Assembly: GCF_008801835.1 (NCBI RefSeq)
Contig: NZ_VZOW01000004.1
Location: 248,001 to 312,000, forward strand
Length of the DNA stretch: 64,000 nt
Direction of reading: 5' to 3'
From: Cupriavidus pauculus
GTDB lineage: Bacteria; Pseudomonadota; Gammaproteobacteria; Burkholderiales; Burkholderiaceae
The position numbers were made by a program, and so were the translations under genes. A model generated the notes under the pieces. That model made no database searches. It saw only the letters and a list, made by a program, of their open reading frames with translations, and was not told the origin of the DNA. This document shows, in pieces, positions 35,579 to 46,461 of this stretch. Each line of letters begins with the position of its first letter. Within the stretch, counting starts at the first letter, position 1.

Positions 35579-36951
35579 TGCGCGCTCCCGGTGTCCGCGG
35601 CATGCGCGGGGTGCAAACCTGCGGGTGACAAGTCGATCTGCTTGGTCATGCCCGCCTTGCGGGCCAGGTGGAACACCACCGAGACATAGGCGACGATCAG
35701 CAGCAGGTACAGCGACAGATACATCGCCAGCGTGCTGCCGATCATCGTGGCGGGCACCTTGGAGGCCGCCTGCGCGGTGGTCAGCACGCCGTAGACCAGA
35801 TAGGGCTGACGGCCGATTTCGGTGACATACCAGCCGGCCACCAGCGCGATCCAGCCGGAAAACGTCATGGCTACCAGCGCGCGCGCCAGCCATGTCGACG
35901 GCGCGCCCCGGCGGCGCAGTTGCCAGGCGCCGAGCCACGACACCGCCAGCATCAGCAGTCCCACGCCCACCATGATGCGGAAGGCGAAAAACAGCGGCGC
36001 AACGGGCGGATGGCGGTCACCGAACGCATCGATACCGCGGATTTCGCCATCGATGGCGTGCGTCAGATACAGCGAGGCGAGCTTGGGAATGGCGATTTCA
36101 AAATCGTTTGACCGCGTGGTGGCGTTGGGCAGTCCGAACAGCACCGCCGGCGCACCTTTTTCGGTTTTCCAGATGCCTTCCATCGCGGCGATCTTGGCCG
36201 GCTGATGGTGCAGCGTATTCAGGCCGTGCAGGTCGCCAGCGACGATCTGCAGCGGAATCAACATTGCCGCCAGCGTGACGCCGGTGCGCAGCGAATGGAG
36301 GACTTCGCGGCTGCGGTCGTTGCGCAGCCAGCGATACGCCGAAATACCGGCCACCAGGAACGCCACGGTCAGGCCAGAGGCCAGCAGCATGTGCACCAGC
36401 CGATACGGGAACGACGGATTGAAGATGACGGCCAGCCAACTGGTAACGTGCGCGCGGCCATCGATCATCTCGAAGCCGGCCGGGGTTTGCATCCACGAGT
36501 TCAGCGCCAGAATCCAGAACGCCGACAGCGTGGTGCCGCCCGCCACCAGCAGCGTGGCGATGGTGTGCACGCGATTGCTGACGCGGCGCATTCCGAACAG
36601 CATGATGCCGAGGAACGTGGCTTCCAGAAAGAACGCGGTCAGTACTTCATAGGCCAGCAACGGCCCGGCGATATTGCCGACGGTCTCCATATAGCCGGGC
36701 CAGTTCGTGCCGAACTGGAAGCTCATGGTGATCCCGCTTACCACGCCGAGTGCAAACGTCAGCGCGAAGATCTTCACCCAGACGCGATACGCGTCCATCC
36801 AGCTTTCATCACCGGTCTTGTTGTAGCGCAGCTTGAAGAACAACAGCACCCACGCCAGCGAAATGCTGATCGTCGGAAACAGGATGTGGAACGTGATATT
36901 CGCGGCGAACTGGATGCGCGCCAGTATCACCGGATCGACACTTTCAAACAC
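35575..36951 (-). CDS. cydA: Cytochrome bd-type quinol oxidase subunit I, cyanide-insensitive (CioA) type
   Basis: A 458-residue subunit starting at GTG 36951, with GGAG six bases upstream. His22 (ANITFHILFP) and the His in PYRLVHMLLASG match haem ligands. The quinol loop is short, with HGLNTLHHQPAKIAAMEGIW instead of the long E. coli loop, which marks the CioA branch known for relative cyanide resistance. It follows the GbsR-type regulator by only three bases, and its ribosome site overlaps that gene's end, so regulator and oxidase are one operon. Confidence 0.95.
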   Translation of the reverse strand: MFESVDPVILARIQFAANITFHILFPTISISLAWVLLFFKLRYNKTGDESWMDAYRVWVKIFALTFALGVVSGITMSFQFGTNWPGYMETVGNIAGPLLAYEVLTAFFLEATFLGIMLFGMRRVSNRVHTIATLLVAGGTTLSAFWILALNSWMQTPAGFEMIDGRAHVTSWLAVIFNPSFPYRLVHMLLASGLTVAFLVAGISAYRWLRNDRSREVLHSLRTGVTLAAMLIPLQIVAGDLHGLNTLHHQPAKIAAMEGIWKTEKGAPAVLFGLPNATTRSNDFEIAIPKLASLYLTHAIDGEIRGIDAFGDRHPPVAPLFFAFRIMVGVGLLMLAVSWLGAWQLRRRGAPSTWLARALVAMTFSGWIALVAGWYVTEIGRQPYLVYGVLTTAQAASKVPATMIGSTLAMYLSLYLLLIVAYVSVVFHLARKAGMTKQIDLSPAGLHPAHAADTGSAQ

Positions 36952-36954
36952 GGG

Positions 36955-37599
36955 TTACTCCTTGCGGGATCGGGCAGACTTTGCGGGGGATTTGCCGGCG
37001 ACGGATTTGGCGGGCGCGCGCCCACGTTCCTTGTCCTTGGCCGCGCCGCCCATGCCGATGGCAGTGGTCAGGCGGTCCTTGACGTCCAGCAGCTTGGTGA
37101 CGCGCGAGCCCAGGCGCATCAGTTTTTCCAGTGTGGCCACATCGAGCTTCTGCATGTCGCCAAACCATGTGGTGACCAACAGGATCAGACCGTACATTTC
37201 CTTCATGCGCGCCTGCGCGTGACGATCGTCCTCAGACAGGGGCGTCTCCAGCTGCACCTCGCGCAGCATCGACAGGGTGGGATCGATCTCGCGCCGGCGC
37301 CGCTCTTCGGCCAGCGTGCGGAAAATCGCCCAGACATCGTCAGGCGCGGAGAAATACTCGCGACGGTCCCCGGGCTGGTGCGAAAGCCTCACCAGATTCC
37401 ACGATTCCAGTTCCTTGAGCCCGATGCTGACGTTGGAGCGCGAAAACCCCAGCGATTCAGCAATCTCGTCGGCATTCAGCGGACGCGCCGCAGTGAAGAG
37501 CAGGGCGTAGATCTGACCAACTGTCCGGTTGATCCCCCAGCGGCTGCCCATCTCACCGAAGTGGAGGACAAAGCGCTGGATCAGGGGCGAGAGCTGCAT
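36955..37599 (-). CDS. GbsR/MarR-type transcriptional regulator of the bd-oxidase operon
   Basis: A 214-residue protein with a winged helix at about residues 10-85 (GINRTVGQIYALLFTAARPLNADEIAESLGFSRSNVSIGLKEL) followed by WNLVRLSHQPGDRREYFSAPDD, the GbsR pattern. A helical dimer part and a Lys/Ala-rich tail follow. ATG 37599 fits the family; the open frame upstream crosses the operator dyad at 37606-37641 and is rejected. The gene is first in an operon with cydAB. The nearby dyad suggests that the protein controls its own promoter, sensing oxygen limitation, cyanide or redox state; which one is not visible. Confidence 0.85.
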   Translation of the reverse strand: MQLSPLIQRFVLHFGEMGSRWGINRTVGQIYALLFTAARPLNADEIAESLGFSRSNVSIGLKELESWNLVRLSHQPGDRREYFSAPDDVWAIFRTLAEERRRREIDPTLSMLREVQLETPLSEDDRHAQARMKEMYGLILLVTTWFGDMQKLDVATLEKLMRLGSRVTKLLDVKDRLTTAIGMGGAAKDKERGRAPAKSVAGKSPAKSARSRKE

Positions 37600-37605
37600 T
37601 GTCTT

Positions 37606-37641
37606 GTTTTGAATTTTCAGAAAGTTGTGAAAGTTTAAAAC
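37606..37641. promoter_or_regulatory. 36-bp dyad before the gbsR-like/cydAB operon
   Basis: The arms GTTTTGAATTTTCA (37606-37619) and TGAAAGTTTAAAAC (37628-37641) are inverted repeats with two mismatches around an eight-base centre. It ends seven bases before the regulator ATG and is strikingly AT-rich. It is the likely autoregulatory operator. Confidence 0.68.
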
Positions 37642-37693
37642 AAAACAGAGAAAGGTGCATCCGCGTGGGCTCAAGTGTGACGGACTGCCTTAC

Positions 37694-37710
37694 GATTCCG
37701 CTGCGTTATC
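37694..37710. promoter_or_regulatory. LysR-type T-N11-A operator, site 1 (porin operon)
   Basis: GATTCCGCTGCGTTATC has the form GAT-N2-CGC-N-GCG-N2-ATC and contains T-N11-A. It lies 94 bases before the porin ATG. Sixteen of 17 bases match site 3 (43834-43850), and 15 match the reverse complement of site 2 (42876-42892). Confidence 0.78.
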
Positions 37711-37803
37711 AGACAAGCCGCTGCCGTTATCCTTCCGCCCTCGAACTTCCTCTAACTTTTGCGCTGAGGCCCGCGACAAAAATCTGAGAAGAGGGGAAGC
37801 GGA

Positions 37804-38862
37804 ATGGGAAGAGGATGGAGGAAGCGACTCGCCATTGGCGGGCTGGCGCTGGGCGCCGGCGCCGCAAATGCGGGGTCCGTAACGTTGTACGGTGTGGCCG
37901 ACCAGGCGGTGGAGTACGCGCATGGGTCTAGCAGCGTGGCCCGCATCGAAGATGGCCGCCAGGCGGCTTCGCGGTTTGGCATGCGCGGTGTGGAAGACCT
38001 GGGCGGCAACCTGAAGGCGATCTTCGTTGCTGAAGCGGGCTTTCGGATGGATACGGGGGCCGAGTTCTTCGGCAACGGATCGATATTCGGCCGACAAGCC
38101 TTTGTCGGCCTCAAAGGGAACTGGGGCGAAGTGCGCATGGGGCGGCAGTACACGCCGGCCTTCTACGTTATCGCGCGGCTCGACCCGTTTTCGCTGAACG
38201 CGGCGGTGTCGCCGTTCACGCTGGTCGCCAAGTCGAGCGCTCAGGGCACGGGCTACGTACCCTACGCGTCGCGTGTCGATAACGCCGTGACCTACAACAC
38301 GCCAGACTGGAACGGGCTGACCGCATCGGCCACCTATGCGTTCGGCGAAGTGCCAGGCGAGATGCAGCAGGCCAGCACCTACGGCGCGAACGTCCAGTAC
38401 TTTCGCGGACCGGTCTACCTGATGTATGGCTTCCAGGCCAGCACCAACAAGCCGGCGACGGCAGCCATCCCGCAGGGCCAGACACGGACCCACTATGTTG
38501 GCGGGACCTACAACATCGCGAGGAAGGTGGAACTCGGCGCTTTCTTCGGCTACAGCGCGAGCCAAATCGCGTCCACCGCGGCGGCCCGCTACTACGCGTT
38601 GACGATGGACTGGGTTGCCACGCCGGCATGGACGATCAAGCTCGCGGCGCTCAAGCGCGTGGTGGTCGGCATGACCGAGCGGCCGCTGGGCATGGCCTTC
38701 GGCGTGGATCATTCGCTGTCGCGCCGGACCATGCTGTATAGCCGCGTGGCCTACATCCGTAACTCGCCAGGTGGCAGCGTTACGATCAACGCCATTCCGA
38801 TCGACCAGGGCAGCGGTGACCAAGGGTACTCCGTCAGCCTGGGCGTCAAGCACGTTTTCTGA
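37804..38862 (+). CDS. Gram-negative general porin, Omp32/Burkholderia type
   Basis: A 352-residue outer-membrane porin. The signal peptide ends GAANA, followed by GSVTLYGVADQAVEYA, the standard first strand. Other marks are RFGMRGVEDLGGNLKAIFVAEAGF, RQAFVGLKGNWGEVRMGRQYTP and the terminal strand SVSLGVKHVF ending in Phe, as needed for BAM insertion. It forms a trimeric diffusion channel. It is first of three plus-strand genes with short gaps (Bug receptor, hydrolase) under a LysR-type box, so it probably admits the pathway substrate. Confidence 0.93.
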   Translation: MGRGWRKRLAIGGLALGAGAANAGSVTLYGVADQAVEYAHGSSSVARIEDGRQAASRFGMRGVEDLGGNLKAIFVAEAGFRMDTGAEFFGNGSIFGRQAFVGLKGNWGEVRMGRQYTPAFYVIARLDPFSLNAAVSPFTLVAKSSAQGTGYVPYASRVDNAVTYNTPDWNGLTASATYAFGEVPGEMQQASTYGANVQYFRGPVYLMYGFQASTNKPATAAIPQGQTRTHYVGGTYNIARKVELGAFFGYSASQIASTAAARYYALTMDWVATPAWTIKLAALKRVVVGMTERPLGMAFGVDHSLSRRTMLYSRVAYIRNSPGGSVTINAIPIDQGSGDQGYSVSLGVKHVF

Positions 38863-38893
38863 TCGCACCAACCATCCTCACTGAAGGCCATGC

Positions 38894-39910
38894 ATGAGTG
38901 AATCGAACTTCGCGGCGGATCGACGCCGCTTCATCGCGGGGGCCGGCGGCGGCCTGCTGGGATTGAGCGCCCTTAGCGCCCTGGGGCTGCCCCTGCGCGC
39001 CTCGGCGGCACAGTGGCCGGACCGCACGGTGCGCTTTGTCACGTACTCGGGCGCAGGAGATCCGGTGGACCTGCGGCTGCGCGACTTCCTGCAATCGCTG
39101 GCGCACGAGTACCGCAACACGCCGATGATCGTGGAAAACAAGACGGGGGCCGCCGGGCAGATTGCTGCCCAGTCCGTGCTGCTCGCGCCGCCCGAAGGCT
39201 ATGACTTCCTGCTGGCCAACGCCACGTTCACTATCACGCCGTCGTACTTCCGCAAGCTCTCGTACAAGCCGCTGTCGGACTTCGTGCCGGTGGCGCTGTC
39301 CGGCTCGGCGCCGATCGGTTTTGCGGTGCCGGCGTCCAACCCCGCGCGCACGTTCAAGGAATGGGTGGCCTGGGCAAAGCAGCAGCGGGGCACCCTGAAC
39401 TACGCGTCGCTGGGCAATGGATCGGTATCGCACCTGTACGGGTTCCAGATCCGCGACGACTTCAAGCTCGACGCCACCCACATTCCGTACAAGGCGTCCG
39501 GCGCGGCGCTGATCGACATGCTGCGTGGGCAGATCTCGTACGTCATGCTCGACACGTTCAACCTGCGGCCGCTGCTGGCAAAGAATCAGGTGCGCATTCT
39601 GGCGGTCACCGGCGCCGATCGCTCGCAGTATCTGCCCGATGTCCCGACCTTCCGCGAACTCGGCTTCAACGGTTATAAGCGCACCGGCTGGACGGCGTTC
39701 ATGGCCAAGACCGGCACGCCGACGGACATCGTCGCGTCGCTGAACCGGTCGATCAACAAGATCAATGCCACGCCAGAGTGGGCGCGCAAGCGCGACGAGG
39801 TGTGGTCCGGCTGGAAGCCGCTGACACCGGCCGAGCTGCAACAGCAGCTTCAGAGCGAAGTTGCCGCGTGGGGCGACCTAGTGCGCCGTTCGGGTGTATT
39901 TGGAGATTGA
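38894..39910 (+). CDS. Bug-family solute-binding receptor with twin-arginine signal
   Basis: A 338-residue TctC-like receptor. The N-terminus DRRRFIAGAGGGLLGLSALS is a Tat-type signal (RRxF then a mildly hydrophobic stretch), unlike the Sec signals of the other two Bug proteins here. The mature part starts AQWPDRTVRFVTYSGAGDPVDL, where the common PGG loop is replaced by GAG, and has PYKASGAALIDMLRGQISY and TGTPTDIVASLNR. It lies 31 bases after the porin and five before the hydrolase. No TctAB genes are near. It should bind the carboxylated or amide substrate hydrolysed by the next gene product. Confidence 0.9.
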   Translation: MSESNFAADRRRFIAGAGGGLLGLSALSALGLPLRASAAQWPDRTVRFVTYSGAGDPVDLRLRDFLQSLAHEYRNTPMIVENKTGAAGQIAAQSVLLAPPEGYDFLLANATFTITPSYFRKLSYKPLSDFVPVALSGSAPIGFAVPASNPARTFKEWVAWAKQQRGTLNYASLGNGSVSHLYGFQIRDDFKLDATHIPYKASGAALIDMLRGQISYVMLDTFNLRPLLAKNQVRILAVTGADRSQYLPDVPTFRELGFNGYKRTGWTAFMAKTGTPTDIVASLNRSINKINATPEWARKRDEVWSGWKPLTPAELQQQLQSEVAAWGDLVRRSGVFGD

Positions 39911-39915
39911 GAGAC

Positions 39916-41169
39916 ATGAGCGCACAAGTGAACGGACAAGTCACGACATTGCAGGCCCATACCGATGCCGTGCCCGAAGAGCAGGTAATGGCCGGATTTC
40001 CGCCAGCCCCGGAAACACGCGTCGGGCCAACAAACTGGTTCAAGCTGCCGTGGCTGCGCTGGTCGCTGATCCATCGTTCGCTGTCGGTGCCGACCGTTGA
40101 CATCTGGCGCGGCGACGCTGCGCCTTCTGCGTTGCCGCCGGGCGACGCACTCGATGGTGCGACGGTGGTTACGGGGCCTGACGGATCGGAGATGGAACTC
40201 GATCAAGTGCTCGGCGTTTTGGAGATCGACGCCTTCATGGTGCTCCATCGTGGCAAGGTGGTGTTCGAGCGCTACCTGCACGGCATGGCGCCCCATCTGC
40301 GGCACGGCAGCGCGTCGATCAGCAAGTCCTACCTGGGCATTGTCGCCGGCATCCTCGCGCATGAGGGCAAGCTGGACCTGACGGCCACGGCGGAAAGCTA
40401 CGTTCCCGAAATGTGCGGCACGGCGATGGGCGGCGCCACGCTCCAGCAGTTGCTGGACATGCAGGCGGGTATCGTGCGGCCGAATCTGGGAGACCGGCCC
40501 TCCGCGCTTGGTGCCCAGGACGGTGGCGTGTTCGAAGTGCTTGGATTGCTGCCGCGCCGGCCCGAATCCCCGACCGATTTCTACGACTTCGTGCTCAAGA
40601 AGCCGGTTGCCGGGCGGCATGGCGAGCGGCTGTACTACGACAACGGCCAGCCCGAGGCGCTGGCCTGGGTGCTGCGACGGGTCACCGGCAGATCGATCGC
40701 TGACCTGATGTCGACGTACCTGTTCCAGCCGATGTCGACCGAACGCGATGGGTTTTACTCGGTCGACAAGACGGGTGCCGAGTTTTCGTCCGGCGGCCTG
40801 AGCCTGACGCTGCGCGATCTGGCGCGCTTTGGAGAAACCATCCGCGGCAATGGCTTCTTCAACGGCCGGCGCATCATCCCTGAGGCCGTGCTGGCCGATA
40901 TCCGCGCTGGCGGCGACAAAGCGTTGTTCGCGGAAAGCCGCTTTGCTGCGGCCTACCCGGGCGGCTCCTATCGCAACTACTTCTATCTGTCGCACGACCG
41001 CTTGCAGGGTATTTCGGCGCAAGGCCGGTACGGACAGCGCCTCTATGTATCGCCAGTGGCCGATGTCGTGATCGCGCACTTCGGCGCGGCACCGGGCCAG
41101 TCACCGCATCCGTTCGAGGTGCCCTATGCGCGCCTGCATCGCGAGATCGCCGAAACGCTGATGGGCTGA
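39916..41169 (+). CDS. Beta-lactamase-fold serine hydrolase (NylB/esterase class C-like)
   Basis: A 417-residue enzyme from ATG 39916 (GAGATTGAGAGAC upstream; the frame is open earlier but overlaps the Bug gene). The catalytic tetrad SISK is at residues 134-137 (GSASISKSYLG), with the second motif YDN in LYYDNGQPEALAW. There is no signal peptide, so it acts in the cytoplasm on an imported substrate. It resembles 6-aminohexanoate-dimer hydrolase and family VIII esterases in layout. The two small genes before it (porin, Bug) supply uptake. Whether it cuts an amide or an ester is open. Confidence 0.87.
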   Translation: MSAQVNGQVTTLQAHTDAVPEEQVMAGFPPAPETRVGPTNWFKLPWLRWSLIHRSLSVPTVDIWRGDAAPSALPPGDALDGATVVTGPDGSEMELDQVLGVLEIDAFMVLHRGKVVFERYLHGMAPHLRHGSASISKSYLGIVAGILAHEGKLDLTATAESYVPEMCGTAMGGATLQQLLDMQAGIVRPNLGDRPSALGAQDGGVFEVLGLLPRRPESPTDFYDFVLKKPVAGRHGERLYYDNGQPEALAWVLRRVTGRSIADLMSTYLFQPMSTERDGFYSVDKTGAEFSSGGLSLTLRDLARFGETIRGNGFFNGRRIIPEAVLADIRAGGDKALFAESRFAAAYPGGSYRNYFYLSHDRLQGISAQGRYGQRLYVSPVADVVIAHFGAAPGQSPHPFEVPYARLHREIAETLMG

Positions 41170-41191
41170 ATACGTACGCCTGCCAACGAAG

Positions 41192-41216
41192 AGACCCCGC
41201 TCGCGCGGGGTCTTTG
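41192..41216. terminator. Bidirectional terminator between hydrolase and acyl-CoA ligase genes
   Basis: AGACCCCGC (41192-41200) pairs perfectly with GCGGGGTCT (41205-41213) over TCGC, followed by TTTG. It lies between convergent genes 23 bases after the hydrolase stop. Confidence 0.85.
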
Positions 41217-41240
41217 TCATTGCGGATTCCACAAGAGGAC

Positions 41241-42797
41241 TCAGGCTACGCGCCGGTCCTGGTCTTTCCAGAATATTTCCCGTACCGCCTTGCGCGACAG
41301 CTTGCCATTTGCGTTCTTCGGCAGCTCGGCCACCACGTCGACAGACCTCGGCTTCTTGAAGTCGGCCAGCCGTTCGGCGCAGTGCTGGATCAGGTCGTCG
41401 GCCTGCGCGCTAACGCCATCGCGCAGCACCACTACCGCCTTGACACTTTCGCCCCAGACCGGGTCGGGCACGCCCACCACGCAGGCTTCGAAGACGGCGG
41501 GGTGTTGATACAGCACGGTTTCTATCTCCGCGGGATAGACGTTGAAACCACCCGAGATGATCATGTCCTTCTTGCGGTCGACGATATACAGGTAGCCCCG
41601 GTCGTCGGCGCGCGCAAGGTCGCCGGTATGGAGCCAGCCGTTGCGCAACGCGGCGGCGGTCAGTTCGGGTTCGCGCCAGTAGCCGGCAAACACGTCGGGG
41701 CCCGCGATGACGATTTCGCCGATCTCGCCGGCCGGTACCTGCTGGCCGGCATCGTCAACCAGGCATACGCGCGCCTCGCTGAACGGACGCCCACACGAAG
41801 CCAGTCGCTCGGGATTGCCTTGCTCGATGGCCACGCGATGATCGTCGATAGTCAGTGCAACCAGTCCGCCAGTCGTCTCGCCTGCTCCATAGCCTTGCGA
41901 CAGGATCGGCCCGAATGCGCGCCAGGCCTCGACGATGCGTGCCGGGGCCATCGGAGCGGATCCGTAGGTCATCGAGCGCAGCGTGGAAAGATCGAATCGC
42001 GCGCGGTCCGGCACTGCCAGCAGCATGTTGATCATGGTGGGCACAACGAAGGTATGCGTGACACGATGCGTCGCCACCGACGCGAGGAAGGCTTCGGGAT
42101 CGAACCGTTCGTGCAGCAGGATGGTGCCGCCCTGGGACAGGAACGGCTGGATGAACATGCCGCTGGCGTGGGTAATGGGGCCCGCCAGCGCCAGCACGTC
42201 GCCGGGGTTGACGCGCATGCGTCCGGTCAGCACCTTGCGCAGCGATGCCATGCGGTTGCCCATGGTTTGCATGGCTGCTTTGAGCTTGCCGGTGGAGCCG
42301 GACGTGTAGTGAAGCACGGCCAGATCGACATCGGCCAGTTCCACGTCGGGATTGACATCAGAAGCTTGCGCGAGCATCTGTTCATAGCTCACAAAGCGCG
42401 GATCGGTGCCACCAAACAGCACTCGGCGGCGCACGGACGGCACGGCATCGGCCAAGGCATGCAGGCGCTCGGCGTGGGCCGGACCGCTGATCAGCACGGC
42501 GGGCTCCGCATTGCGCAGTGTCTCCAGCACTTCGTCATCGGAAAGCCGTGCGTTGAGCGCAACCTTGACTAGCCCGCTCTTGTACAGCGCGACCTCGAGC
42601 TCTATCAACTCCGGCCGATTCCAGGATTGGATGGCTACGCGGTCTCCTTTTTGCAGGCCCAGGCTTAGGAGCGCGTTGGCCAGTCGGCTGGAACGGGTGT
42701 CGAGTTCGGCAAAAGTGATACGGCGGTCGGCAAAGAGAATGGCCGGCCGGTCGGGCCAGTACTGTGCGCTGCGCGCGACGAATCGCCCCAGATTCAT
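41241..42797 (-). CDS. AMP-dependent acyl-CoA synthetase/ligase
   Basis: A 518-residue ANL-superfamily enzyme. The ATP loop is LHYTSGSTGKLKAAMQT, the mid motif is GYGAGETTGGLVAL, and the hinge and C-terminal domain read GDLARADDRGYLYIVDRKKDMIISGGFNVYPAEIE with the catalytic lysine in LPKNANGKLSRKAV. It activates a carboxylic acid to its CoA thioester through an acyl-AMP. A LysR-type box at 42876-42892 lies about 80 bases before its start, the same operator as before the porin operon and the dehydrogenase. It probably activates the acid released by the hydrolase. Confidence 0.93.
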   Translation of the reverse strand: MNLGRFVARSAQYWPDRPAILFADRRITFAELDTRSSRLANALLSLGLQKGDRVAIQSWNRPELIELEVALYKSGLVKVALNARLSDDEVLETLRNAEPAVLISGPAHAERLHALADAVPSVRRRVLFGGTDPRFVSYEQMLAQASDVNPDVELADVDLAVLHYTSGSTGKLKAAMQTMGNRMASLRKVLTGRMRVNPGDVLALAGPITHASGMFIQPFLSQGGTILLHERFDPEAFLASVATHRVTHTFVVPTMINMLLAVPDRARFDLSTLRSMTYGSAPMAPARIVEAWRAFGPILSQGYGAGETTGGLVALTIDDHRVAIEQGNPERLASCGRPFSEARVCLVDDAGQQVPAGEIGEIVIAGPDVFAGYWREPELTAAALRNGWLHTGDLARADDRGYLYIVDRKKDMIISGGFNVYPAEIETVLYQHPAVFEACVVGVPDPVWGESVKAVVVLRDGVSAQADDLIQHCAERLADFKKPRSVDVVAELPKNANGKLSRKAVREIFWKDQDRRVA

Positions 42798-42875
42798 GAT
42801 GTTTTCCGGTGGATGGATGGGGCGACCAGTCTAGGCAGTGGCGCAGTGCATGCCGATAGCGGTGCGCGCTTTGCC

Positions 42876-42892
42876 GATAACGCCACGGAATC
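42876..42892. promoter_or_regulatory. LysR-type T-N11-A operator, site 2 (acyl-CoA ligase)
   Basis: GATAACGCCACGGAATC is the inverted form of sites 1 and 3 with two central differences, and keeps T-N11-A. It is oriented toward the minus-strand ligase gene, 79 bases before its ATG. Confidence 0.75.
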
Positions 42893-42931
42893 GGCAGGGC
42901 GCAAGGTGAGGCGGGTTTGTCCGTGGCAACT

Positions 42932-43831
42932 TCAGGTATCGCGATAGACCTGTGAACGTTCCAGCAGGATCTGGATCAGGCGCTCGGCCAGCGGCGACTG
43001 GTAGGCGTCCTTGCGGCGTAGCACGCCGATGGACCGTTGCCAACGCGCGGAAGCGATCTCCAGGATGGCCAGCCCCTGCGTCTGCGCAACCGTGCGCCGC
43101 CCGAGCACCGTCAGCAGATCGCTGCTATGGATGACCGTCAGAAGGGCCGCCGCTGACGAGTTGGTTTCCACGGCCACGTTTGGGGCAGGCAGGCCAGCCT
43201 CGGCGAAGCGCGCCTCAACCAGTCGGCGCGCCACTACGTTGGTATTGGGCAGTAGCCACGAGTAGTCGCACAGGTCGGCAAGCCTCAGCGAGCGCCGGTC
43301 CAACAACGGATGGCGATCCCGCGCAATCACCACGAGTTCGTCGTCGAACAACGGGATCTGCTCGAATTCCGGATCGCCTTTGCGCGCCAGGGCCGCGATG
43401 CACAGATCGAGGTCGCCGAGGCGGAGCGACGAGTAGAGCGAATCGTTGAGGCCGATGGAGATCTGGATATGGGCGGCAGGCCGCTGCTTGATGAGTTCGG
43501 TGCAGGCTTCCGAGAAAAACATGCTCAGGATCGAAGCGGGTACGCCTACGCGAACCAGGCCGATCTTGCCAAGGTGCAGGTCGTTGGCTTCCTTGATGGC
43601 ATCGTCGAGCGAGGACCTCACCTGCAGCACGCGTTCAAAGAATACCGACCCGGCGGACGTCAGCGTCATGCCTTTGGCATTGCGTTCGAAGAGCTGTATT
43701 CCCAGTTCCTGCTCCAGGCGTTGCACCCCCTTGGTCAGCGCCGGTTGACTCTGGCCGAGCTTCTCCGAAGCGCGTCCCACGTGGCCTGCCTGTGCCACTT
43801 CCAGAAAATAATTCAGATCCTCAAGCCTCAT
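42932..43831 (-). CDS. LysR-family regulator, likely controller of the porin/Bug/hydrolase/ligase/dehydrogenase regulon
   Basis: A 299-residue LysR protein from ATG 43831. The winged helix is MRLEDLNYFLEVAQAGHVGRASEKLGQSQPALTKGVQRLEQ, of the CynR/CatR-like branch. The effector part has LVRVGVPASILSMFF and GDLDLCIAALARK. It is divergent from the acyl-CoA dehydrogenase gene, and operator site 3 begins three bases beyond its start. Two more copies of that operator precede the ligase and porin operons, so it is the natural regulator of all three. The inducer is unknown, probably a CoA ester or the free acid. Confidence 0.9.
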   Translation of the reverse strand: MRLEDLNYFLEVAQAGHVGRASEKLGQSQPALTKGVQRLEQELGIQLFERNAKGMTLTSAGSVFFERVLQVRSSLDDAIKEANDLHLGKIGLVRVGVPASILSMFFSEACTELIKQRPAAHIQISIGLNDSLYSSLRLGDLDLCIAALARKGDPEFEQIPLFDDELVVIARDRHPLLDRRSLRLADLCDYSWLLPNTNVVARRLVEARFAEAGLPAPNVAVETNSSAAALLTVIHSSDLLTVLGRRTVAQTQGLAILEIASARWQRSIGVLRRKDAYQSPLAERLIQILLERSQVYRDT

Positions 43832-43833
43832 CT

Positions 43834-43850
43834 GATTCCGCCGCGTTATC
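43834..43850. promoter_or_regulatory. LysR-type T-N11-A operator, site 3 (dehydrogenase/LysR divergent promoter)
   Basis: GATTCCGCCGCGTTATC differs from site 1 by one base. It lies 74 bases before the dehydrogenase ATG and against the LysR start, the standard position for activation of the target and self-repression. Confidence 0.8.
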
Positions 43851-43923
43851 GAAACTGACGTTCCGATCATGGGGGAGGAATGCTGCCCGGTCAACACTGT
43901 CAGGATCGGAAGAGGAGTCAAAA

Positions 43924-45093
43924 ATGCCAGAACTTGCTGCCAACCCTGGCGAGCTGCGTGCCGTGCTGCATCGCTACCTGGAGGACGAATTGCTTCCATG
44001 GGAGCGGGAGCAGAACATCGGTTACGAAGACCGGATCTCGCGCGAACTGATCCGTTCCATCTGGCGGCGCAGCCGGGAGCTGGGGCTTTACGGAGCCCAG
44101 TTGCCCGTCGAATTAGGCGGGCAGGGCCTTTCTGTGGAGGCAATGTGCCAGCTCAAGGATGATGTGGCCGCATCGGGGGCCATCCTGTTTCCTCATGTGC
44201 TGGGAGACTGGGGCGGACCTTCGCGCGTGGGCAATCTCGTCCGGTTTGCCACGCCTTACCAGCGGAAGCTTTTTATCGACCCCGTGATCGCCGGCGAGCG
44301 TGGCGCCTGCTTTGCCATGACTGAACCGAATTCGGGGTCGGACGCCGCGAGCATCCAGACCCGCGCAGTCGTCGACGGCGACGATTACATCGTCACGGGC
44401 CGAAAGCACTTCATCACTGCCTCGGTATTCGCGGACTACGCCCTCACCATGTGCGTGACGGATCCCGACAAAGGCAATGAAGGCATTTCCGCCATCTTCA
44501 TCGATCTCGATAGTCCGGGCGTTACGCTCGATACCGCCTGCGTGCCCATCACGGGACAGTACGTGGATGCCGACATCATCCTGGATCACGTCCGCGTACC
44601 GCGCCGCAACTGCATCGGCGGAGAAGGCAACGGCTTCCGGCTGGCGATGAACCGCATCAGCCTGAATCGACTGCTCCACTGCCCGACCATGATTGGATTG
44701 GCCCGCCAGGCGCTGCGCCTGTCCATTGCCTACGCCAACACGCGTCGCCAGTTTGGCGGGGCGATCATCCGCTTTCAGGCGATTCAGCACATGCTTGCCG
44801 ACATGGCCTCCAGCCTGTTCGCTTGCGAAAGCATGGTGTTGGCCGCCGCACGCAAGGCCGACGCAGGCATCGATGTCCGCATGGAAGCGTCGATGTGCAA
44901 GCTATTCGTCTCCGAAGCCTGTTTCCAGATTGCCGACAAGGCTGTGCAGATTCACGGCAACGTGGGGGTCACGAAGAACCATCCGGTCGAGTTCATTTTC
45001 CGACGCCTCCGGCTTTATCGGATCGTGACCGGCACCAGCGAAATCCAGCGCAACACGATCGCCAAGGAAATCATGCAAGGTCGTGGCGCATGA
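43924..45093 (+). CDS. Acyl-CoA dehydrogenase family flavoprotein, canonical catalytic Glu absent
   Basis: A 389-residue FAD enzyme from ATG 43924 (GAGGAG six bases upstream). The FAD/CoA signature is CFAMTEPNSGSDAASIQTRA; helix G has NRRFG-type SIAYANTRRQFGGAIIRFQAIQHMLADM; the C-terminal motif is IVTGTSEIQRNTIAKEI. In medium-chain type enzymes the base is Glu in YEGT; here the same position is Thr (VTGT). The alternative isovaleryl-type Glu in helix G is Asn (SLNRLL). It may therefore use another residue or carry out a different flavin reaction. The gene is under the LysR box and pairs functionally with the ligase. Confidence 0.88.
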   Translation: MPELAANPGELRAVLHRYLEDELLPWEREQNIGYEDRISRELIRSIWRRSRELGLYGAQLPVELGGQGLSVEAMCQLKDDVAASGAILFPHVLGDWGGPSRVGNLVRFATPYQRKLFIDPVIAGERGACFAMTEPNSGSDAASIQTRAVVDGDDYIVTGRKHFITASVFADYALTMCVTDPDKGNEGISAIFIDLDSPGVTLDTACVPITGQYVDADIILDHVRVPRRNCIGGEGNGFRLAMNRISLNRLLHCPTMIGLARQALRLSIAYANTRRQFGGAIIRFQAIQHMLADMASSLFACESMVLAAARKADAGIDVRMEASMCKLFVSEACFQIADKAVQIHGNVGVTKNHPVEFIFRRLRLYRIVTGTSEIQRNTIAKEIMQGRGA

Positions 45094-45284
45094 GCGGGGG
45101 CTAAGCATCACGATTCCAGACCTCATTCGCGGCGCTGAACGGAAATGACCGTATCTGGCCGAGAAAAGTGCGGCACATATTGGCGCGAACGGATGGCAAG
45201 TGGCCATCGCTTAGAATTCCGCATCCGAGACCGATAGTCGACACCATGCCTGGAGCCAACCTGACGCAATGCGTCGTGAAGCCA

Positions 45285-45932
45285 ATGCGAACAGCCGCGC
45301 TGGTCATCGTGTTGTTTGCGCTGGGCGCGTGCACCGCGCGGCCTTTTCAACCGAACCCGCCGGCGTACACGATGTGGGAAAAGACGGGGGTGACTGAGGA
45401 TGGCGTGCGCGCCGCCATGCACGATTGCGGCTTTGCCAGCGCTACGAGCAATGATGGCGTCAACATGACCGGCAATGACTATGCCGGCGCCGAACTGTGC
45501 ATGATCGACAACGGCTTCTTGTACAAAGGGCGGCGCATTGCCTGCGCCGACTTTCCGGAGCGGATGGCCTGCGCCCGGGTGCCGCGCGGCAAGACCTTTG
45601 GAACCGATCCCGATTTCGATCCGGCGCGGCTGGCGAGCCGGCTAGTGCGGCCGCCCGCCTATGCGTACTGGACTCGCCCAGGGACCGATGTCGAAGGTGT
45701 CAAGCACGCGATGATGGCGTGCGGCTACAACACCGTCATCGAGCCGACCGATTCGATGCTGCTCAACGACATCGCTGGCGCGCAGCTGTGCATGATCGAG
45801 CAGCGGTTCACGTATGCGTGGCCCGTCAACAGCCTGCTATGCAAGAGCACGCCAGGGTTGGCTGCCTGCCGCAACCGTCCCATCGATGCCAAGCGCTGCT
45901 GCGCTCGTCCGAAAGCCGCGGGCCAGCACTGA
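45285..45932 (+). CDS. Lipoprotein with duplicated four-cysteine module, unknown function
   Basis: From ATG 45285 the product has 215 residues and a lipoprotein signal with lipobox LGAC (Cys16). After it come two copies of a module of about 75 residues. Copy 1 starts PPAYTMWEKTGVTEDGVRAAM, with Cys at 48, 72, 87 and 96. Copy 2 starts PPAYAYWTRPGTDVEGVKHAM, with Cys at 146, 169, 186 and 195. Both contain AGAxLCMI. The even cysteine spacing suggests two disulphides per module in the periplasm. The protein ends in a Lys/Arg/Cys-rich tail. I do not recognise a characterised family. The open frame upstream from 45168 lacks a signal at its start and is not used. Confidence 0.75.
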   Translation: MRTAALVIVLFALGACTARPFQPNPPAYTMWEKTGVTEDGVRAAMHDCGFASATSNDGVNMTGNDYAGAELCMIDNGFLYKGRRIACADFPERMACARVPRGKTFGTDPDFDPARLASRLVRPPAYAYWTRPGTDVEGVKHAMMACGYNTVIEPTDSMLLNDIAGAQLCMIEQRFTYAWPVNSLLCKSTPGLAACRNRPIDAKRCCARPKAAGQH

Positions 45933-45999
45933 TTCATTTCCTGGCTGACATGGCGGATGACGTCACGCCATGGCGGTATCCACTACTTGCCCGCGTATT

Positions 46000-46461
46000 T
46001 TAATCGCCGGCCGCGTGTTCCTTTACATCGCCTACGACCATTGCTTTTAGCCCTTCACGCAGTGCGGTCGCATTTTCTACGCCGTTTAGTTCCTCGAACT
46101 CGCGTTGTGCGGCTCGCCAGAGCGGGGCTGCTCGTTCGTGCAGCCGTCGCCCGTCTTTGGTGAGTTCGATCAGTCGGATTCGGCCGTCAGTTGGCGACGG
46201 CTTGATTTTCACGAAGCCATCGCGTTCGAGAAAGCCAACCATCTTTCCCATCGCCGTCCGCTCAATATCGAGCCTCTCGGCCAGCGCGTTGACTGGGGCA
46301 CTTCCCACCTCGTCCAATGCTGCAAGCGTCAGGAATTGTGTAATGCGCAGACCCACCGGTTCGAGATGGCTATCGTAGAGTCGCGAGATCTGCCTGCTTG
46401 CCTTCCTAGCGGCGAAGCAATTGCACTGATCGATTCCAAGCGGCTGGTCAAACACCGACAT
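46000..46461 (-). CDS. MarR-family transcriptional regulator
   Basis: A 153-residue winged-helix regulator. FLTLAALDEVGSAPVNALAERLDIERTAMGKMVGFLERDGFVKIKPSPTDGRIRLIELTKDG covers the recognition helix and wing with the DGR motif. Two cysteines near the start (CNCFAARK) could sense thiol-reactive compounds. AAGGAG lies ten bases upstream. It precedes, with opposite-side neighbours, a group of SDR, NTF2-like and NmrA genes, which are typical MarR targets. Confidence 0.92.
   Translation of the reverse strand: MSVFDQPLGIDQCNCFAARKASRQISRLYDSHLEPVGLRITQFLTLAALDEVGSAPVNALAERLDIERTAMGKMVGFLERDGFVKIKPSPTDGRIRLIELTKDGRRLHERAAPLWRAAQREFEELNGVENATALREGLKAMVVGDVKEHAAGD

Follow-up and report, generated by a model that had tools for sequence, protein, structure and literature searches.

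A LysR-type regulator and three shared operator sites predicted to govern a 7.4-kb catabolic cassette in Cupriavidus pauculus

Introduction

Control of several catabolic operons by a single LysR-type protein has been described for PnpR, the para-nitrophenol regulator of Pseudomonas sp. WBC-3, which regulates four operons. In that system, mutations in the recognition binding site (RBS) silence three promoters, the RBS lies near -65 and the activation binding site (ABS) near -35, and the RBS spacing is similar in three of the four promoters (PMC5603801). Another relevant system is the desulfinase cluster of Advenella mimigardefordensis, which includes a LysR regulator, a family III coenzyme A (CoA)-transferase and TctC receptors (PMC5373536). 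As regards the flavoproteins, a further study places the catalytic glutamate base of acyl-CoA dehydrogenases between helices J and K, or on helix G in the case of isovaleryl-CoA dehydrogenase (PMC5798300). The present work concerns a window of 64,000 nucleotides from Cupriavidus pauculus (NCBI RefSeq assembly GCF_008801835.1, contig NZ_VZOW01000004.1, positions 248,001 to 312,000 of the forward strand), which contains a catabolic cassette of six genes encoding an outer-membrane porin, a Bug/TctC-type solute receptor, a NylB-like hydrolase, an acyl-CoA ligase, a LysR-type regulator and an acyl-CoA dehydrogenase homologue. Judging from sequence comparisons, it is very probable that the LysR protein is the dedicated local regulator of three transcription units in this 7.4-kb cassette.

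The regulator and its operator sites

The regulator gene (42932..43831, minus strand) encodes a protein of 299 amino acids with an N-terminal HTH_1 domain (PF00126, E 3.5e-20) and a LysR substrate-binding domain (PF03466, E 2.2e-34), which places it in the LysR-type family; its nearest relative in the PDB is TsaR (3fxq, E 7.8e-23). A sequence-only reading of this stretch had proposed that this one protein activates the porin/Bug/hydrolase unit, the ligase unit and the dehydrogenase unit through three 17-mers, each with a T-N11-A motif, and all three were confirmed in position, strand and motif. Operator 1 (37694-37710, plus strand, GATTCCGCTGCGTTATC) is the candidate recognition site of the porin/Bug/hydrolase unit, with 93 bases between it and the porin start at 37804, and operator 2 (42876-42892, minus strand, GATTCCGTGGCGTTATC) is separated by 78 bases from the ligase start at 42797 on the minus strand. 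Operator 3 (43834-43850, plus strand, GATTCCGCCGCGTTATC) precedes the start of the dehydrogenase homologue at 43924 by 73 bases; on the other strand it also sits 2 bases ahead of the lysR start codon and would thereby serve both genes of the divergent pair. The core of operator 1 is kept in all four cassettes available for comparison, namely that of the window and those of C. necator SHC 2-3 (locus L016), C. agavae (L017) and C. pauculus 19C6 (L018).

A genome-wide scan with the 17-mer had been set beforehand as the test that could overturn the proposal, and the proposal withstood it, with no frequent unrelated copies detected. When up to two mismatches to GATTCCGYNGCGTTATC were allowed across the 6,415,608-base genome, 15 places were found, comprising the three exact sites of the cassette, none with one mismatch and 12 with two; the reversed pattern, serving as a control, gave 2 places, and 11 of the 12 two-mismatch copies lie inside open reading frames as delimited by a simple caller. 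A refined core, GATAAC-N5-GGAAT (GATAACNNNNNGGAAT), has three matches in the 6.42-Mb genome, all at the cassette (reversed control, 0), compared with a background of about 0.76 for a genome of such length (50 matches in some 424 Mb of same-genus sequence). Within the window alone, three matches at up to three mismatches were also reached by one of 100 shuffles, so that it is the exact matches, together with the count over the whole genome, that give the evidence its strength. Chance or a repeat element was considered as the source of the sites and ruled out, given that the three core copies of the genome each lie upstream of cassette genes. The sole intergenic two-mismatch copy of the 17-mer elsewhere in the genome is site 1501 of L007 (G000:C5:304258, GATTACGTAGCGATATC).

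A search for orthologues of the regulator, accepted at E up to 1e-80, gave 13 positive genomes among 398 of the family and 4 among 399 of the order, two of the latter being already known, while two further genus searches (2/16 and 2/32 genomes) yielded no new orthologue and a plasmid collection contributed one record, from Variovorax. Eighteen LysR loci were studied (the window, L016-L019, L058-L067 and L073-L075), with L020, whose LysR is 29% identical, left out of all counts. The core was derived from the window and the Hydrogenophaga contig L019 before the other loci were scanned. In L019 the LysR protein, the dehydrogenase homologue and the ligase are 59%, 71% and 68% identical to those of the window, and both GATAAC and GGAAT are kept upstream of lysR with different intervening bases. 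Across 60 same-genus genomes the core occurs 67 times, and 17 of these matches, counted around the 10 LysR orthologues found in 9 of the genomes, fall within about 6 kb of an orthologue, against 0.015 expected. In 11 of the 18 loci the exact core is located 3 bases ahead of the lysR start, and a version with one mismatch (AATAAC for GATAAC) precedes lysR in three more (L066, L067 and L074). Away from lysR, exact cores precede the ligase genes of L066 and L067 as well as the hydrolase genes of L064 and L065, weaker ones lie ahead of the hydrolase genes of L060 (at one mismatch) and L063 (at two), and the ligase gene of L073 has two one-mismatch sites upstream. The core is found again in a second genus, ahead of ligase genes, and in a third, ahead of hydrolase genes.

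A tree limited to the 18 orthologues, in which L073 is still a long branch (a version with paralogues had long branches), separates a ligase/dehydrogenase clade of six rows (L019, L066, L067 and L073-L075) from the rest with support of 100/100, and places the window clade (99/97) next to a hydrolase clade of eight rows (L058-L065, 100/98). One genome, G001, holds both a window-type cluster (L017) and a hydrolase-type cluster (L063), whose LysR proteins are 95% and 62% identical to that of the window and which have the same operator core. Cross-talk between these two clusters is possible.

Promoter architecture

The surroundings of the operators may correspond to the RBS/ABS arrangement of LysR-controlled promoters: T-N11-A is present, NANNNT hexamers are spaced 51 bp away and two of the three promoters have a second half-site, the putative transcription starts being deduced from the hexamers. 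In the porin promoter, a second GTTATC half-site (37726..37731, plus strand), invariant in 4/4 cassettes and putatively the activation site, follows operator 1 after 15 bases, and a putative -10 element, TAACTT (37753..37758, plus strand), is located 51 bp from the operator centre within an invariant stretch. The ligase promoter has a second half-site, GCTATC (42855..42860, minus strand), likewise 15 bases after its operator and the same in 4/4 cassettes, together with a putative -10 element, TAGACT (42828..42833, minus strand), again 51 bp from the operator centre; L066 has TAACAT at the same spacing. At the place of this half-site CGCATC is found in L066 and L067, and ATCGGC is invariant in all six sequences aligned. 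For the dehydrogenase promoter, a putative weak -10 element, AACACT (43893..43898, plus strand), lies at 51 bp, and CAGGAT at 59 bp scores equally. More broadly, a NANNNT hexamer occurs 51 bp from the operator centre in all 12 promoters picked (50 bp in the dehydrogenase promoter of L066), these being the three of the window, the hydrolase promoters of L058, L060 and L063-L065, the ligase promoter of L066 and the dehydrogenase promoters of L066, L074 and L075. With this spacing the operator centre would fall near -62, not far from where LysR recognition sites usually lie, and the observation is taken as supporting evidence only.

The regulator gene and the dehydrogenase gene diverge over operator 3, and the same divergent order is found in L019, L066, L073, L074 and L075, with L073 lacking the site. 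On the minus strand, a lysR promoter of the form TTGACC-N17-CATGAT (43866..43894) lies upstream of operator 3, which thereby falls between the -10 element and the start codon; it is the sole sigma-70-like match in 36900-45300, where 1.3 are expected by chance. A TTGAC-N17/18-NATNAT promoter before lysR, with the operator downstream, was found in 7 of the 8 LysR upstream regions scanned, L019 being the exception.

From these features we infer a mechanism in which three imperfect palindromes, GATTCC-N5-GTTATC (T-N11-A), are bound by the LysR protein, their centres lying some 62 bp ahead of the points where transcription of the porin-Bug-hydrolase, ligase and dehydrogenase units probably begins. 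The inducer would probably be the freed acid or its CoA ester, and the induced protein would contact the second site nearer the -10 element and then activate transcription. Since operator 3 is situated downstream of the lysR promoter and beside its start codon, the same binding is predicted to repress lysR as well.

A number of observations weigh against this interpretation. The 12 promoters were selected by hand, with the L058 site placed by a typed pattern; within the 22-bp range searched, six of the 12 contain further NANNNT hexamers, and the motif itself is loose, with a frequency of 0.066 per position in the leaders of the window. Moreover, homologous promoters are not independent, which reduces the 12 to four kinds. 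A clear second half-site is missing from the dehydrogenase promoter. No core precedes lysR in four of the 18 loci (L061, L064, L065 and L073), and in L061 none was detected at up to one mismatch across 19.9 kb. Upstream of the L019 ligase gene there is likewise no core at up to one mismatch, the ligase genes of L074 and L075 have two-mismatch sites only, and no clear recognition site was seen in the hydrolase promoters of L058, L059, L061 and L062. Finally, GGAAT near lysR may be conserved as a ribosome-binding site instead. Even so, the proposal of one LysR protein acting on three units through three operators is strongly supported by the exclusivity of the sites in the genome, their footprints in other genera and the operator position.

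A second element was also observed in the hydrolase upstream regions of L058-L063, with the clear form ATTCC-N5-GGAAT in L060-L063, and less clearly in those of L064-L065. It is located just downstream of the hydrolase recognition site, at the expected activation-site position, and consists of two GGAAT halves spaced as in the operator.

Cassette proteins and the predicted route

The first unit begins with the porin gene (Porin_4, 37804..38862, plus strand, PF13609, E 3.9e-44), followed by a gene for a Bug/TctC-type receptor (38894..39910, plus strand). The presence of the TctC domain (PF03401, E 7.7e-50) assigns the receptor to this family; its best PDB relative is BugD, a twin-arginine start, DRRRFIAG, is recognizable by eye, and receptors 64-67% identical to it occur in six of the eight hydrolase-type loci. 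The third gene (39916..41169, plus strand, PF00144) encodes a serine hydrolase with an SxxK motif (S134-K137) and a YxN motif (Y241-N243), whose residues are invariant in 10 aligned homologues and, by eye, in all 12 compared. Its best PDB relatives are 6-aminohexanoate-dimer hydrolases (4gb7, E 4.9e-64, residues 34-412 of 417), and the SxxK and tyrosine motifs together with this near full-length similarity make it a NylB-like enzyme. The AlphaFold model of the hydrolase, with a predicted local distance difference test score (pLDDT) of 45.7, was too poor for fold comparison. The suggestion that the substrate is an ester or amide appears reasonable in view of these PDB relatives.

The ligase gene (41241..42797, minus strand) encodes an AMP-binding protein (PF00501, PF13193), and ligase genes 62-69% identical to it adjoin LysR orthologues in L019, L066, L067, L073, L074 and L075. 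Taken together, the proteins are consistent with a route in which the compound would enter through the porin, be captured by the Bug receptor, be transported and then be hydrolysed at an amide or ester bond in the cytoplasm by the NylB-like enzyme, after which the acid would be activated with CoA and the acyl-CoA acted on by the flavoprotein.

That flavoprotein (43924..45093, plus strand, PF00441, PF02770, PF02771) is an acyl-CoA dehydrogenase homologue lacking the catalytic glutamate of a typical member. Threonine 369 is found at the base position of the segment joining helices J and K, a place taken by glutamate in the five best PDB relatives aligned, and asparagine 248 falls, by alignment, at the helix-G position; both residues are invariant in 9/9 orthologues, those of L019, L066 and L073-L075 among them. 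The absence of glutamate from either known base position makes ordinary dehydrogenation doubtful, and the flavin chemistry proposed earlier therefore calls for caution. Membership of the 3-sulfinopropionyl-CoA desulfinase family (NF042439) was rejected, the score being 183.7 bits against a curated cut-off of 600. In L104, a member of that desulfinase family scoring over the cut-off, glycine and glutamine stand at the places of T369 and N248; the Advenella desulfinase has a Gln246. Given the threonine and asparagine replacements and the likeness to the desulfinase, chemistry independent of the base is a possible lead. An alternative with only slightly less than an even chance is that the ligase and the dehydrogenase homologue carry out ordinary beta-oxidation of the acid, the base being supplied from another position. 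The family match speaks for this, as do the best PDB relatives, which are dehydrogenases and an acyl-CoA reductase, but invariant replacements at both known base positions speak against it.

Distribution of the two modules

The proposal that all the genes make one pathway fared less clearly than the regulon. Hydrolase-type loci (L058-L065) hold the hydrolase in 8/8 cases, a Bug orthologue in six and a porin homologue in six, with no ligase or dehydrogenase match in the fetched stretches, and the fetched stretches of L019, L066, L073, L074 and L075 hold the ligase and the dehydrogenase homologue with no NylB-like hydrolase; in L067 the ligase is present and the stretch ends before the place of the dehydrogenase. 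Within the fetched stretches of the loci seen, both modules occur together only in the window clade. Other functions accompany the ligase/dehydrogenase module, including a Bug-type receptor in L019, L073, L074 and L075, a major facilitator superfamily transporter and a porin in L066, a family III CoA-transferase after the dehydrogenase gene in L019 and L074, and an alpha/beta hydrolase right after the ligase gene in the Hydrogenophaga locus L019.

Modularity under one LysR clade suggests a common inducer and leaves a single pathway plausible, and the joint presence of both modules in four cassettes agrees with it; the split of the modules nonetheless counts against it, as the hydrolase and the ligase need not belong to one route. 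The possibility that the same regulon comprises two parallel or overlapping routes, with the porin, Bug receptor and hydrolase devoted to one compound class, the ligase and dehydrogenase homologue to another, and only the inducer in common, draws on precisely this separate occurrence. It is nevertheless considered rather unlikely, since four cassettes hold both modules between sharp homology borders with one operator set, and the alpha/beta hydrolase and CoA-transferase of L019 show that hydrolysis recurs together with CoA activation. A single route, leading from an amide or ester through the acid to the acyl-CoA, is thus regarded as plausible and is held less firmly than the regulon itself.

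A more speculative proposal, to which we would give a low probability, is that the dehydrogenase homologue founds a separate clade of acyl-CoA flavoproteins without the base, which would cleave or rearrange acyl-CoA by a desulfinase-like elimination or similar reaction. Such an enzyme would act behind the NylB-like hydrolase in an undescribed amide or ester route, possibly for a man-made or heteroatom-bearing compound, with LysR sensing the common acid or acyl-CoA; the window cassette would be complete, and its relatives in other lineages would each keep one half under the same operator code.

Cassette borders and surroundings

The cassette (37692..45100) corresponds to the block in common with L016, L017 and L018, to which it is 86.6-89.1% identical (blastn). 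This block runs from 37692-37693, beside operator 1, to the stop codon of the dehydrogenase gene at 45089-45100; no homology adjoins it among the four cassettes except for 1.4 kb beside the dehydrogenase gene that L016 and L017 have in common. The left flank, with a MarR-type gene and cyd genes, is homologous in 11/11 other loci examined, only up to 37641-37658, and homology of the right flank resumes at 45198 in genome G030. Sharp borders, different surroundings and flanks that are homologous elsewhere give the cassette the appearance of a discrete inserted unit, and it seems to move as a unit.

Operator 1 sits between the porin gene and the divergent MarR-type gene (36955-37599), yet it is most improbable that the sites belong to that or another regulator and lie close to lysR incidentally, since 34 of 60 same-genus genomes contain MarR-type relatives (accepted at E up to 1e-40, a part of them distant paralogues only), the close relative in G030 is about 82 kb from the cassette, none is found in the L016-L018 stretches, and the site tracks LysR orthologues across genera.

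Between the convergent hydrolase and ligase units lies a GC-rich hairpin (41190..41215), for which folding of 41180-41225 gave -24.6 and -24.7 kcal/mol on the two strands (z -4.0 and -4.6). It is probably a two-way terminator, although it was not among the seven terminator-like sites of a terminator scan. An Rfam scan of 36500-46000 gave no match at the gathering score. Beyond the cassette, a small protein encoded at 45246-45932 has two similar-looking halves and no Pfam or NCBIfam match; with a limit of E 1e-30 it was found in 8 of the 60 same-genus genomes.

Significance

Searches of the open-access PMC literature aimed at the cluster found no description of it or of the function of this LysR clade; what appears new is the operator code of the clade, the modular sets of genes under it and the unusual flavoprotein. 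The clade gains a precise and testable operator, GATAAC-N5-GGAAT, which would tie a porin, a Bug receptor, a NylB-like hydrolase, a CoA ligase and a dehydrogenase homologue without the base into one inducible set. This operator may be used for finding further pathway members, and the substrate might come to light by screening inducers with a single reporter. If active, the flavoprotein clade would extend by one the reactions of the acyl-CoA dehydrogenase superfamily.

Comparison with described systems

TsaR, the LysR regulator of tsaMBCD, is like the window protein at family level only, and its target genes differ. The hydrolase shares with the NylB (EII) family the catalytic motifs and a match over nearly the full length, and no export signal was seen in it by eye. 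The nylon route involves an aminotransferase and a semialdehyde dehydrogenase, whereas neither gene is among the six of the cassette. As in 3-sulfinopropionyl-CoA desulfinase, the flavoprotein combines an acyl-CoA dehydrogenase fold with the loss of both bases, but the two are 29% identical, and the cassette has no thiol dioxygenase gene and has a ligase in place of the transferase. The family III CoA-transferase and TctC receptors that accompany LysR in the Advenella cluster (PMC5373536) have counterparts in the relatives L019 and L074. The closest parallel is offered by the PnpR regulon, in which one LysR protein controls three catabolic operons as well as its own gene by way of T-N11-A type sites; there the motif is GTT-N11-AAC, the pathway is aromatic and the regulation was shown by experiment, whereas that of the window is predicted (PMC5603801). 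On the basis of the sequence, it is well supported that the cassette would form a regulon of a known kind, much like that of PnpR.

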